Positions 25,405-31,256 of a DNA stretch of 42,200 nucleotides are shown one piece after another; positions within the stretch are counted from its first letter, which is position 1, and the number at the start of each line of letters is the position of its first letter. The translations under genes and the position numbers were made by a program. Below the pieces are notes generated by a model. That model saw only the letters and a program-made list of their open reading frames with translations, was not told where the DNA came from and ran no database searches. The DNA is from Kiritimatiellales bacterium. GTDB lineage: Bacteria; Verrucomicrobiota; Kiritimatiellia; Kiritimatiellales; Pontiellaceae. The DNA is taken from positions 1 to 42,200 of the forward strand of contig JADGFE010000006.1 in the NCBI GenBank assembly GCA_016744085.1. Direction: 5' to 3'.

Positions 25405-26010
25405 TTGTCAGCTGAAGACCAGTATCAAACAAGAGCAACGCTGATTCAGCGTGTTCAAAACCAACAGGACGATCAGTCCTGGGAAGAGTTTGTGCGTGTT
25501 TATCGGCGCTATATCTATGCGATTATTCGCAGCATGAATATTTCTGAACACGATACTGAAGACATTCTTCAGCAGGTATTAATCAACCTATGGAACAGTC
25601 TTCCGAAAATGGATTATAATAAGATCAACCGTTTTCGCAGTTGGCTGAGTACCGTAACAAAAAACTGTGTAACCGATTTTATCCGCAAGCGTATCCGGGA
25701 AGCCAACCGCTTAGAAAAGGCCAGTAAGGATGACACGCTGACCTATCTAAAAGCCATTCGTCTTCCTGAGATTGACACTATTGCTGAACGGGAATGGGAA
25801 ATCCACCTGACCAACCTAGCTTTGGATAATATTGCTCCTCTGTTTTCCGGGAAAGCCGTTGATGCATTTCGTCTGACGCTGGAAGGCAAAAGCGTTGAAG
25901 AGATTGCAAAGAAGCTCGAGCTCAAGGAAAACTCGGTATACCGGCTTAAAAATCGAGTTAAGGAGCGGCTGATTCAGGAGATTCGGCATCTGCGGGAAGA
26001 TTTGGAGTAG
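25405..26010 (+). CDS. RNA polymerase sigma factor, ECF family (TTG start)
   Basis: Region 2 SEHDTEDILQQVLINLWNSL, RFRSWLSTVTKNCVTDFIRKR; region 4 LEGKSVEEIAKKLELKENSVYRLKNRVKERL; SD-like aagagg upstream of TTG at 25405. Confidence 0.88.
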   Translation: MSAEDQYQTRATLIQRVQNQQDDQSWEEFVRVYRRYIYAIIRSMNISEHDTEDILQQVLINLWNSLPKMDYNKINRFRSWLSTVTKNCVTDFIRKRIREANRLEKASKDDTLTYLKAIRLPEIDTIAEREWEIHLTNLALDNIAPLFSGKAVDAFRLTLEGKSVEEIAKKLELKENSVYRLKNRVKERLIQEIRHLREDLE

Positions 26011-28090
26011 GCACCTTCCGACCTGTCTTTGAATCAACAACCACCATCTTCTGCGTTAACTCAGCAATGGTTTCTTTGGGATAATCACTGATGGTTAGAA
26101 AAACCTTTTTCAGCTTCAGTGATTCCAGCTGACGCGGCAACTGCCTGGGCGCATCAACCTTCACCCCTGCCATTCGAAGTTCATTTAACCTCATACCGCG
26201 TAGCTCAGCCAGATTGCCTAGCTTCGCATCACTTATATCCAAGGTAGCCAGTTTAAATGGTGCCAGTACGTTTCTTCGGTAGACGCCGATAATGTTCATG
26301 GAAAAGACCGAATAGTTTGTTCGGGACAAATTCAGCAGGAGCCCATTCTTCGTTTTAAAAAGCTTAAGTGGATTTTTTTTTGATCGCCTAGTGTAGTTTA
26401 ATTTATCGAGAACAGCGCCCGCCAACTTAATATATTCTTCCGGTGATGCCGAAGCGGGACGACGGCGCATGTGGTGATAGTAGAGATAGAACAGTGTCAT
26501 CTGGTTTGCGGTTTTAGCTTCACTAAACAGTTCGGCCAGTTGATTGTCGCTTAACCGACTTTTATCTATCGGTTTTATTTTTGCATATTTTTGACTCAAC
26601 ACGCGAAGCTGACCGATACGCTTGCTTTTTCCCGCCGTGTTAAAACATTCATTCGCTGCATGAAATTCCTCCAATACGAAATGAAGAATCCCCTTTTGCT
26701 CGTATAGATTCTGCCGTTTAACCGTATCAATATTTTCATCCAGCCCAGTTTCAAGCAAATGAATCATCGACGGCGCATTCACAAAATCGCGGCTACGCAC
26801 AGTGAACGATACTGCCTGCCCTAATTCCTGGCCCAGCGCAGCCGCGACCTGTTGCTCATTCCTATAAAGTTGAAAGTTTTCTTCTGCGGTCGTTCTTGCC
26901 GCTACGGCCTCCGATTTTTCTTTGCTGATGGCAAGAAGATTTACGCTGACCACAAAGGCCAGCAGCAACAGAAAAAATATGAGCAAAAATGAAACTCGAT
27001 TATGGCGCCGAAGTAAAAGCGAAGCCTTGGTTATCCACCCTGCGCTTTCGGCTTTTGTCGGATGCCCTGATAGATAGCGGCTAATTTCATGGCGAAGGTC
27101 GCCCACATCTTCATATCGGTCGTCCGGTTTTAAGGCCAACGCCTTCATGGTGACAGCGTTCAGGCTTTGCGGAGTATGAAAATCAGGGTTCCGGCGGCGC
27201 ATTGAAATGATTTTACCCTCTCGGGTATTCTGAATCACCTTGTTTGCAGACTCTCCTTCCACCGGAAGTTTGTAGGTCAACAGCATATAAAGCAGTGCGC
27301 CCAGCGCATAGATATCGGTATGTTGCTTTTTATCACCATACGCCTGCGTTTGTTCGGGCGCCATGAACCCAGGAGTTCCTTTTAACGTTCCAGAAAGGGT
27401 CATGTCGTTCAGGATATCACCATCCAGCAAAGCAGAATCATCTGAGAGATCATGGTCTTCGTCATTGATGACTCGGGCAAGTCCCCAATCGCACACCAAT
27501 ACTTCACCAAATTTTCCAACACGGATATTATCCGGTTTAATATCAAGATGAAGAACCCCTCGTGAATGGGCATAAGCGATGGCATCGCAGATTTTCAGAT
27601 AAATATTAAGTAGGGTATCAAGCGGATAGTCTCGGCGATAGTCCGCATCACCATCTCTTAGTTTACGAACAATGGTTTTGAGACTGTCGCCGGGAATCAG
27701 TTCCATGGAGAAAAAAGGTTCCCCATCAGGATCAAGACCCATGTTATAGACCGGCATAATATTCGGATGGGCAAGATTAGCCGTTAAACGGGCTTCCCGC
27801 AGAAATTGTTCTAAATCCTGCGATCCTTTATTACGAACCGATCGAGCCATAGCGATTCTCCGATCCAGCCGATGGTCATGGACTAGCGTAATCCGCTTTT
27901 CTCCCCCTTCGGCAATCTTTTCAATTTCCCGATAGCGGGCAATGTCGTCTTTCAGCGAGTTAAGGATCGGGGTTAACGAATCTTTCTCATCTTCCGAGAG
28001 CTCCAGCGCTGCGGTATTATAAAAACTGCGCAATGTTTCATTACGGTCGCTGAATACTTTTTCGAGATCCTTATTTTCTTCATCCGCCAT
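25958..28090 (-). CDS. Membrane Ser/Thr protein kinase-like protein with WNK-like lysine arrangement and LRR-like C-terminus
   Basis: HLDIKPDNIRV, CDWGLA, GTPGFMAPEQ, HTDIYALGALLYMLLTYKLP; TM VSFLLIFFLLLLAFVVSVNLLAI. beta3 position reads IAMAR (no VAxK lysine); glycine loop AEGGEKRI. Confidence 0.9.
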   Translation of the reverse strand: MADEENKDLEKVFSDRNETLRSFYNTAALELSEDEKDSLTPILNSLKDDIARYREIEKIAEGGEKRITLVHDHRLDRRIAMARSVRNKGSQDLEQFLREARLTANLAHPNIMPVYNMGLDPDGEPFFSMELIPGDSLKTIVRKLRDGDADYRRDYPLDTLLNIYLKICDAIAYAHSRGVLHLDIKPDNIRVGKFGEVLVCDWGLARVINDEDHDLSDDSALLDGDILNDMTLSGTLKGTPGFMAPEQTQAYGDKKQHTDIYALGALLYMLLTYKLPVEGESANKVIQNTREGKIISMRRRNPDFHTPQSLNAVTMKALALKPDDRYEDVGDLRHEISRYLSGHPTKAESAGWITKASLLLRRHNRVSFLLIFFLLLLAFVVSVNLLAISKEKSEAVAARTTAEENFQLYRNEQQVAAALGQELGQAVSFTVRSRDFVNAPSMIHLLETGLDENIDTVKRQNLYEQKGILHFVLEEFHAANECFNTAGKSKRIGQLRVLSQKYAKIKPIDKSRLSDNQLAELFSEAKTANQMTLFYLYYHHMRRRPASASPEEYIKLAGAVLDKLNYTRRSKKNPLKLFKTKNGLLLNLSRTNYSVFSMNIIGVYRRNVLAPFKLATLDISDAKLGNLAELRGMRLNELRMAGVKVDAPRQLPRQLESLKLKKVFLTISDYPKETIAELTQKMVVVDSKTGRKVPTPNLPADAESPESAAP

Positions 28091-28856: not shown

Positions 28857-31256
28857 ATGGATATCATGAATACAATTTCACTCAAAACACTGCTCACAAC
28901 CACTTTTCTTCTGTCAGGGTTCAGCGCCTTGGCCATAGATTTTACAGAGCAAGGCGAATATCTTGGATCGTCCGACTGCATTTCCTGCCATGAACGCTTT
29001 TATGAACTCTGGAGCACATCCCACCACGGGAAAGCCATGGAGGCATTCAGCGTCTCTCTGGCCAAAACCCTTGAGCCAATGACTGAACCTATCCAGGTTG
29101 GCGAGGAAAAGTTTATTGTCGAGTTTGATGATGGCGGAGGCATCCTCAGGAGCGTCTCCTCGTGCGGCGAGGAAGAGACTTGGCGTCTCCGCTTTTCGTT
29201 CGGCGGCCGTAATGTGCGCTATTTTCTGATTCCAATGGATAAGGGTAAGCTCCAGGTCGCCCCGCTCGCGTACTATGTCCACCAGCGAAAATGGTACGAC
29301 TCTGCCGGCAGCATGGTTCGCGATTTTCAGGATGAAGGCCCTGCGGATGAAGCCCTGCACTGGACCGATCGCCAACTGACTTTTAACACCTCCTGTCACG
29401 ACTGCCATGTCAGCCAGCTCGAGAAAAACTACAATCCCGAAGACGATAGCTATACCACCACATGGAAAGAGCCCGGCATCAATTGCGAAACCTGCCACGG
29501 CCCTGCAGAAGCCCACGTACTCGCCGCCAAAAAGGCCGCTGCCGAAGGCGAGATACTCACAGACCTCAAGTTACTCACCTTCCATGGAGATCTCAACATG
29601 GCCCAGCGTGATTCCACTTGCGGCCCATGCCACGCCAAGGGCAACATACTCACGCGCGACTTTACTCCCGGCGAACTATACTTCGACCACTATGATCTGA
29701 CCTCCTATGAAGACCGTGATTTCTGGCCCGACGGACGCGACCTCGGCGAAAACTATACCCAAACCGGATGGATGGCTAATCAGTGCGTAATTGCCGGTGA
29801 ACTCGAGTGCATTCATTGCCACACTTCCAGTGGCCGATTTCGCTTTGAGGATAATCCCAACCAGTCGTGTCTTCCCTGCCACGAGAGGCGTGTCGATAAT
29901 ATTCTCGAGCACTCACATCACACTGCTGAAGCTGGCGTAACCTGCGTCGATTGCCACATGCCCACCACCGCACAAGCCTTCATGTCGCGTTCCGACCACA
30001 CCTTCCGCCCGCCCTCTCCAGCCGCCACACTTGAATTCGGATCTCCGAATGCCTGCAACCTTTGCCACAACAACGCAGAAGCCATTATGGGAAACTATAG
30101 CGGTCACAAAAAAGAAGATGTGAAGTGGGCCGATGCACTCGTAAAGGAATGGCATGGCAGCAGCTCGGGTGCGCCCATCATCAAGCTTGGCCGTATAATT
30201 CAGGCCTGTCGAGCCGGTGAATGGGATAAACTTCCCGAAATTCTGGCCTACCTCGACAGCCCTCAATGTGATTCACCTTCCGCCGTGGCTATCCTGCGTC
30301 TACTTAACAACTGCCCTCAAGCTGAAAAATGGCCCGCCATCCGCAAGCAACTTAAACACAAACACGAATGGGTACGCGCCACCGCTGCAGCCTCGTTACA
30401 ATATGACTCTTCGACCGAAACAACCAAAGGTCTGCTGAAAGCCGCATCCGACCGATACCGAACTGTTCGTATTCGCGCTGGCGGAGCATTACTCGGCCGC
30501 AATCTGGCGGGCTATCCCAAAGAAGAGCAGGAGACTTACAAAAAAGCCCACGCCGAATACTGGAACTCACTCGTAATCTTCCCCGACCGTTGGTCCACAC
30601 ACTATAATCAGGGCATCTATTTCGACCGTACCGGAAAATCGGAAGAATCGCTCGCGGCCTATAAAAAATCATTGGAACTGCGTAACGATGTCATTCAACC
30701 AATGATTAATGCCTCGATGGTGTATGCCCGTGCAGGAAATAGTACCAACGCCTACGAGATGCTGAAAAAAGCACTTAAGGTTGAGCCGGATAATCCAATG
30801 GTCAACTTTAACATTGCGCTGCTCGATGCCGAGTTCGGCAATCTGATTCAGGCCGAAATCCATCTCAGAGCCGCGTTAAAAACTTCTCCACCCATGCCGC
30901 AGGCGGCTTACAATCTGGGGATTCTGCTCTTACGCGACAACAAACCAGAGGGATTCAAATGGTTGGAGGCAGTGGCACTTTCTGAGCCGGAAAATTGGAA
31001 TTATACATCGTCCTACATCTACTTCCTGAATCAGGCGAAACGGGGAAACGAAGCGGAAGGTGTGTTGCAAAGCGTCATAGCAACAGGAAGGGCGTCAGCC
31101 GATGTCTACTTCATGCTGGCAAACAATTATCAACGCGAAGGCCGAATTTCAGAAGCGATTGAAATCTTCAAAAAGGCCAAGCTTGATAAGCGCCTGCCCA
31201 TGGATGCCAAACGTTACGCGACCCAAATGGAACAGCAGCTCCGTTCCGGCGATTAG
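28857..31256 (+). CDS. Octaheme c-type cytochrome with HEAT-like and TPR C-terminal region
   Basis: Signal peptide; eight CxxCH motifs (CISCH, CHDCH, CETCH, CGPCH, CIHCH, CLPCH, CVDCH, CNLCH); EWVRATAAASLQ / VRIRAGGALL HEAT-like segments; several TPR units (e.g. AAYKKSLELRNDVIQPMINASMVYARAGN). Confidence 0.9.
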   Translation: MDIMNTISLKTLLTTTFLLSGFSALAIDFTEQGEYLGSSDCISCHERFYELWSTSHHGKAMEAFSVSLAKTLEPMTEPIQVGEEKFIVEFDDGGGILRSVSSCGEEETWRLRFSFGGRNVRYFLIPMDKGKLQVAPLAYYVHQRKWYDSAGSMVRDFQDEGPADEALHWTDRQLTFNTSCHDCHVSQLEKNYNPEDDSYTTTWKEPGINCETCHGPAEAHVLAAKKAAAEGEILTDLKLLTFHGDLNMAQRDSTCGPCHAKGNILTRDFTPGELYFDHYDLTSYEDRDFWPDGRDLGENYTQTGWMANQCVIAGELECIHCHTSSGRFRFEDNPNQSCLPCHERRVDNILEHSHHTAEAGVTCVDCHMPTTAQAFMSRSDHTFRPPSPAATLEFGSPNACNLCHNNAEAIMGNYSGHKKEDVKWADALVKEWHGSSSGAPIIKLGRIIQACRAGEWDKLPEILAYLDSPQCDSPSAVAILRLLNNCPQAEKWPAIRKQLKHKHEWVRATAAASLQYDSSTETTKGLLKAASDRYRTVRIRAGGALLGRNLAGYPKEEQETYKKAHAEYWNSLVIFPDRWSTHYNQGIYFDRTGKSEESLAAYKKSLELRNDVIQPMINASMVYARAGNSTNAYEMLKKALKVEPDNPMVNFNIALLDAEFGNLIQAEIHLRAALKTSPPMPQAAYNLGILLLRDNKPEGFKWLEAVALSEPENWNYTSSYIYFLNQAKRGNEAEGVLQSVIATGRASADVYFMLANNYQREGRISEAIEIFKKAKLDKRLPMDAKRYATQMEQQLRSGD

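Follow-up and report, generated by a model that had tools for sequence, protein, structure and literature searches.

A likely active clade of bacterial Hanks-type kinases with a WNK-like relocated lysine and, in Pontiella-type genomes, paired ECF-like sigma factors

A 2007 survey of the microbial kinome described the WNKs as the only functional eukaryotic-type kinase family without the beta3 lysine (PMC1821047), and as the mutation K233M kills WNK1 (PMC9496095) the relocated-lysine geometry is known to support catalysis. Parallels to the change described here are the lysine migration in WNK and POMK and the charge shift in the CAK-chloro family (PMC1821047, PMC10211241). For bacterial pseudokinases a review names seven groups (ActPs1-3, GLW, CP1, DYD and DLHK), with divergent ATP- and metal-binding motifs of which several families have lost all three (PMC12599244). 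The phosphorylation of a paired ECF sigma factor by a Hanks-type kinase has been established for PknT-EcfP and PknS-EcfK (PMC13147305). A WNK-type swap in a bacterial Hanks-type family was not reported in the literature searched, which excluded a 42-family kinase atlas where a prior description is possible.

The window, meaning the whole stretch of 42,200 nucleotides that was analysed, encodes such a kinase. Its features are given below, with fractions referring to the 112 lysine-swapped kinase domains of the family collection.

25958..28090, minus strand: gene for a 710-aa membrane Ser/Thr kinase with relocated lysine (open reading frame; Pfam Pkinase, 107 bits)
27056..27937, minus strand: Hanks-type kinase domain, about residues 52-345 (Pfam, phmmer to PknB, AlphaFold2 model, Foldseek)
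27890..27913, minus strand: glycine-rich loop A60-E-G-G-E-K65-R-I67 (translation)
27896..27898, minus strand: K65, the proposed relocated ATP-phosphate lysine at the WNK1 K233 position (invariant in 112/112; WNK1 alignment)
27845..27856, minus strand: beta3 motif I79-A-M-A82, with Ala for the usual Lys (A82 in 112/112)
27794..27796, minus strand: E99, helix-C glutamate (Glu in 112/112; model helix 90-104)
27527..27550, minus strand: catalytic loop H181-L-D183-I-K-P-D-N188, HLD for HRD (D183 and N188 in 112/112; Leu182 in 108/112)
27482..27490, minus strand: metal-binding D201-W-G motif (D201 in 112/112)
27380..27382, minus strand: K237, a clade-enriched basic residue directly before GTPGFMAPE (Lys/Arg in 97/112 of the clade)

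The original prediction, made from the sequence alone, had claimed that beta3 reads I79-A-M-A82 without the usual lysine, that K65 sits at the third-glycine place of the loop AEGGEKRI with a spacing of 17 to A82, the same as K233 to C250 in WNK1, and that Asp183, Asn188, Asp201 and the helix-C Glu99 are retained. All of these claims held: both motifs are read directly from the translated 710-aa frame (codons 27898-27896 for K65 and 27847-27845 for A82, minus strand), the alignment with WNK1 supports the place of K65 and confirms the register of the spacing, and the four catalytic residues are found in every swapped member (112/112). The protein exceeds the Pfam Pkinase cut-off of 31.7 with its 107 bits and possesses the HxD Asp, the catalytic-loop Asn, the DxG Asp and the helix-C Glu of Hanks-type kinases, and it lacks the beta3 (VAIK) lysine, with Ala at position 82 here and in 112/112 clade members. 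Upstream of the kinase gene and divergent from it lies a large open reading frame (28857-31256) in which the haem-binding motif CxxCH recurs alongside TPR-like repeats and which is likely a multihaem cytochrome.

For a view of the whole family, which the original prediction did not cover, relatives were drawn from the genus of the window (probably Pontiella), from the best 80 loci among 84,980 species genomes, and from 388 genomes of the phylum. Among 210 distinct related kinase domains in the alignment, 112 carry Lys at position 65 together with Ala at 82, and 97 carry Lys at 82 together with Gly, Ala or Ser at 65 (one Val, one gap). None of the 210 aligned domains has both lysines and no full-length one has neither, the sole such case being truncated. 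The exchange of the loop lysine against the beta3 lysine, proposed earlier as a check of the WNK-like reading, is therefore all-or-none: the K65/A82 pair is present in 112/112 swapped members and in 0/97 conventional relatives, a pairing well beyond chance. The swapped kinases share a median pairwise identity of just 42% and only 18 of 292 positions are invariant among them, including K65, A82, E99, H181, D183, K185, N188, D201 and G203. A coupled change, also beyond the original prediction, is HLD instead of HRD in 108/112; L081 and L203 are swapped kinases with HRD intact, so the swap does not strictly depend on losing the Arg. Position 237 is mostly hydrophobic in conventional kinases, whereas Lys or Arg is found there in 97/112 of the swapped clade. 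The swap is spread over about 75 genomes or records of Kiritimatiellota, Lentisphaerota and Verrucomicrobiota, and it was not seen in relatives from Planctomycetota, Myxococcota and Chlamydiota, which with only the best 80 loci of the species scan included does not show a wider absence. In conventional kinases residue 190, two after the catalytic Asn (R190 in the window, codon 27521-27523), is M/L/I/V, whereas Q/R/H/N prevail in the swapped clade. We take it to be the equivalent of PKA L173 beneath the adenine, and its polar character hints at an altered nucleotide binding.

The kinase domain was modelled with AlphaFold2 (residues 30-352, 73-row alignment) and reached a pLDDT of 89.9, its closest solved folds in Foldseek being PknB and PknA with a TM-score of up to 0.88 on target length. 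In window numbering the model shows strands beta1 at 53-61, beta2 at 65-72 and beta3 at 77-84 and helix C at 90-104, so that beta2 begins with K65 while A82 lies within beta3 and E99 within helix C. K65 should face the nucleotide because it shares a strand face with I67, which we take to be the counterpart of PKA V57, a residue lining adenine. The structure prediction suggested with the original claim is compatible with it, and this orientation is inferred from the strands of the model and not from distances between K65 and the phosphates or E99. Two further features complete the protein.

26915..27007, minus strand: single transmembrane segment, about residues 362-391 (hydropathy)
26021..26908, minus strand: presumed extracytoplasmic sensor with a long helix, helical repeats and an LRR-like C-terminus (AlphaFold2, pLDDT 84.4)

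The transmembrane segment is similarly placed in most paralogs. The C-terminal sensor half gave only weak Foldseek matches to TPR/LRR proteins, none of them below an E-value of 0.1.

In order to compare the clade with WNK1, its kinase-domain sequence was confirmed against PDB chain 5W7T and added to the 210-sequence alignment. The register pairs K65 with K233, A82 with C250, E99 with E268, D183 with D349, N188 with N354 and D201 with D368. Judged by this alignment and the secondary structure of the model, the lysine arrangement of WNK, a beta3 strand without Lys and a Lys opening beta2, is met by the window kinase, whereas HRD and DLG of WNK1 are not, as it has HLD and DWG. Phylogenetic trees were built with columns 65, 82 and 182 blanked, and even so the swapped kinases form one clade inside the bacterial Hanks-type kinases. 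This clade is supported at 77/86 and 94/87 in two careful trees, each of which needs one change for the swap, and two changes are needed in a 170-row quick tree; we regard a single origin as likely. As the swap is then essentially one evolutionary event, the split into 112 and 97 does not amount to many independent confirmations. Three kinases, L051, L208 and L215, have HLD and a basic residue 237 yet a normal GGMG loop and beta3 Lys (VAMK). The second careful tree joins them with the swapped kinases in one set, starred at 99/95. They are likely living intermediates between the conventional and the lysine-swapped kinases. Because this sister group combines HLD with a normal lysine, loss of the Arg probably preceded the move of the Lys, and the likely order is a change of HRD to HLD along with a basic 237, followed by the move of the Lys with residue 190 turning from hydrophobic to polar.

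The kinase gene overlaps by 53 bp at its 3' end with a convergent sigma factor gene, a partner that had not been part of the original prediction.

25405..26010, plus strand: partner ECF-like sigma-70 factor (Pfam Sigma70_r2, NCBIfam sigma70-ECF; pairing, mirror trees)
25429..25443, plus strand: N-terminal T9-R-x-T12-L motif of the sigma factor, candidate phosphosites (T9 in 20/20; T12 as 19 Thr and 1 Ser of 20)

A homologous ECF-like sigma gene, convergent or on the same strand, is found nearby in 20 of 21 Pontiella-type kinase loci. Among the kinases of the named genomes, 12/21 swapped vs 0/59 conventional ones have a related sigma gene within 1.5 kb. The genome of the window itself encodes a second swapped kinase (GGMK / VAMA) on another contig (G000 contig C204, L235:2920-5752), followed immediately by a sigma gene of its own in the same orientation, and the T-R-x-T-L motif is also present in a second sigma factor of this genome. 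In one of the 20 loci, L155, the sigma factor most like that of the window is encoded almost 4 kb away from the kinase with other genes in between. Kinase and sigma distances correlate with r = 0.92 overall, and within two single genomes with 0.76 and 0.96. At most 1 in 20,000 permutations matched such correlations; kinase and sigma factor are thus co-inherited in Pontiella-type genomes. As both trees mirror each other the sigma factor is suggested as the kinase substrate, and we consider it likely that it is switched on by the kinase, with both the phosphorylation and the direction of control being inferred. Mirror trees report co-inheritance and not phosphorylation, and it remains possible that the adjacency reflects scaffolding or anti-sigma control. 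Furthermore, many Lentisphaerota members have no adjoining sigma gene and some have no sensor, and therefore control of a sigma factor is not universal in the clade. Lentisphaerota-type swapped kinases of this kind (L044, L045, L053, L056, L142-L145) are about 370-460 aa long with little or no C-terminal sensor and no adjoining sigma gene. With a Hanks kinase gene (25958-28090) beside an ECF sigma gene (25405-26010) the locus has the gene arrangement of an ECF43-type pair. The region 2.2 signature of ECF43, a phosphorylatable Thr and no acidic DxxD, is not met by the window sigma factor, which retains DTED. A charge supply in region 2.2 as in ECF43 was rejected for this sigma factor, where it need not apply, and since the acids are retained the mechanism must differ from that of ECF43 or be additional to it. 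Paralogous kinase-sigma pairs adjoin genes for sulfatases, GH10, GH95 and secreted Ig or CBM96 proteins, neighbours that fit bacteria which are known to carry about 500 sulfatases (PMC7356697).

From these data we propose that the gene product is a catalytically competent PknB-like Hanks-type Ser/Thr kinase and belongs to a separate clade that is widespread in Verrucomicrobiota (in the GTDB sense), in which the ATP-anchoring lysine would have left beta3, with Ala82 in its place, for position 65 at the start of beta2. There, K65 would contact the ATP phosphates and pair with E99, as K233 does in WNK1. The presumed extracytoplasmic sensor of helical repeats and an LRR-like end, anchored by a single transmembrane helix, would control the cytoplasmic kinase, which in turn may phosphorylate the genomically paired ECF-like sigma factor and thereby switch on a gene set. 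What the computation shows is the residue swap, its family-wide fixation with the other catalytic residues retained, a probable single origin, the fold, and the pairing and co-inheritance of kinase and sigma factor. The mechanism as a whole, an active relocated-lysine kinase under sensor control that phosphorylates its paired sigma factor, is likely, and its K65 contacts, catalysis, direction of control and substrate are inferred.

The alternative that survives best is a pseudokinase, either a non-catalytic scaffold, perhaps nucleotide-sensing, or an anti-sigma docking module, in which K65 would be incidental or merely an aid in ATP binding. In its favour, pseudokinases are usually recognised by their missing beta3 Lys, HLD replaces HRD, position 190 in the floor of the adenine pocket is polar, and the tight pairing with the sigma factor would also suit a binding partner. 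Against it, D183, N188, D201 and E99 are retained in 112/112, and since this catalytic set is invariant at a median identity of 42% a simple or decaying pseudokinase is disfavoured. Moreover, several motifs decay together in most of the bacterial pseudokinase families described (PMC12599244), whereas the swapped clade shows a change in place of the beta3 Lys alone together with a new loop Lys, and keeps the Asp of both HxD and DxG, a comparison that rests on the published descriptions (PMC12599244) and not on family profiles. Finally, K65 occurs only where the beta3 Lys is gone. We therefore consider a pseudokinase unlikely and the clade as likely consisting of active Hanks-type kinases with a WNK-like lysine geometry; the original prediction of an active kinase rather than a simple pseudokinase is supported by the co-variation and the retained catalytic set, with catalysis itself inferred, as we found no assay of any enzyme of the clade.

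Common ancestry with the eukaryotic WNKs, for example by transfer, instead of an independent relocation appears very unlikely. It would explain why lysine positions and spacing are identical to WNK1, and a joint clade of the swapped kinases and WNK1 is not rejected by the AU test (p 0.26), in which the branch of WNK1 is very long. However, the free tree groups WNK1 on a very long branch among the conventional kinases (starred set, 17 conventional rows and WNK1), the swapped clade joins the bacterial HLD kinases with normal lysine (starred 99/95), and WNK1 has retained HRD and DLG. Membership in the WNK family was not assigned, with HRD and DLG absent and the free tree separating both groups, even if the AU test leaves a joint clade possible, and a relocation independent of WNK is favoured but not proven.

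An active kinase using R83, R77 or K237 in place of the beta3 lysine, with K65 not being the anchor, is also very unlikely: R83 directly follows A82 and had been named at the outset as an alternative at beta3, but its position is variable with Arg in only 30/112, R77 is nearly invariant (111/112) but equally conserved (97/97) in conventional kinases with the beta3 Lys, so that this conservation pattern rules out both, and K237 is enriched in the clade but not invariant and is basic also in the normal-lysine sisters (two of three Lys, the third Arg), the perfect exchange with the beta3 Lys being seen for K65 only. With 112 members spread over about 75 genomes and records, a sequence error or single oddity was rejected. 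A viral origin or spread was rejected as well, on the basis of three of the 9 kinase loci obtained in a scan of viral contigs: these three, which were translated and include the best match, have normal lysines.

Under the preferred reading of an active relocated-lysine kinase, the bacterial clade is a second, apparently independent case of the swap within Hanks-type kinases. As living sisters have the lysine in its usual place, it can now be tested how an 'essential' residue comes to move. Annotation by the missing VAIK lysine would wrongly flag a large and probably active family, its activity being inferred, as pseudokinases. In these specialists for sulfated polysaccharides, which have up to about 26 kinase matches in a single genome, the clade further provides a system in which kinases and sigma factors duplicate together. 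A bolder reading, to which we incline by a narrow margin, is that this is the first bacterial Hanks-type family with an independent WNK-type relocation that is still active, has normal-lysine sisters (HLD, VAMK) in which the order of the steps is preserved, and co-duplicates with dedicated sigma factors running polysaccharide-degradation regulons.

In comparison with known systems, CAK-chloro is a prokaryotic kinase-like family in which a positive charge is possibly shifted from position 72 to 55 (PMC1821047), but it uses Arg and not Lys, has Met at 72 and Phe for the helix-C Glu, and is related to choline/aminoglycoside kinases and not of the Hanks type. POMK (SGK196), a eukaryotic enzyme of the kinase fold, has its lysine moved to beta2 where it is needed for activity (PMC10211241), but it is a sugar kinase in which other motifs moved too, whereas those of the swapped clade stay put. 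PknT-EcfP and PknS-EcfK (ECF43) share with our locus a transmembrane Hanks kinase encoded beside its ECF sigma factor (PMC13147305), but ECF43 sigma factors typically lack the acidic DxxD in region 2.2, where the window sigma factor has DTED, and PknT and PknS are not described as lysine-swapped. PknB/PknD-type kinases agree in fold, domain order and transmembrane receptor design and are the best sequence and structure matches to the window kinase, and they differ in retaining the beta3 Lys, the loop Gly and HRD. WNK1 and WNK3 share the absent beta3 Lys (A82 / C250), the Lys at the third-glycine place opening beta2 (K65 / K233), and a helix-C Glu, HxD Asp, Asn and DxG Asp all in register with the swapped clade. 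In contrast to WNK, the swapped clade nests within bacterial PknB-like kinases and reads HLD and DWG in place of HRD and DLG, and where WNK has chloride sensing and SPAK/OSR1, the clade described here has a membrane sensor and a sigma factor partner.
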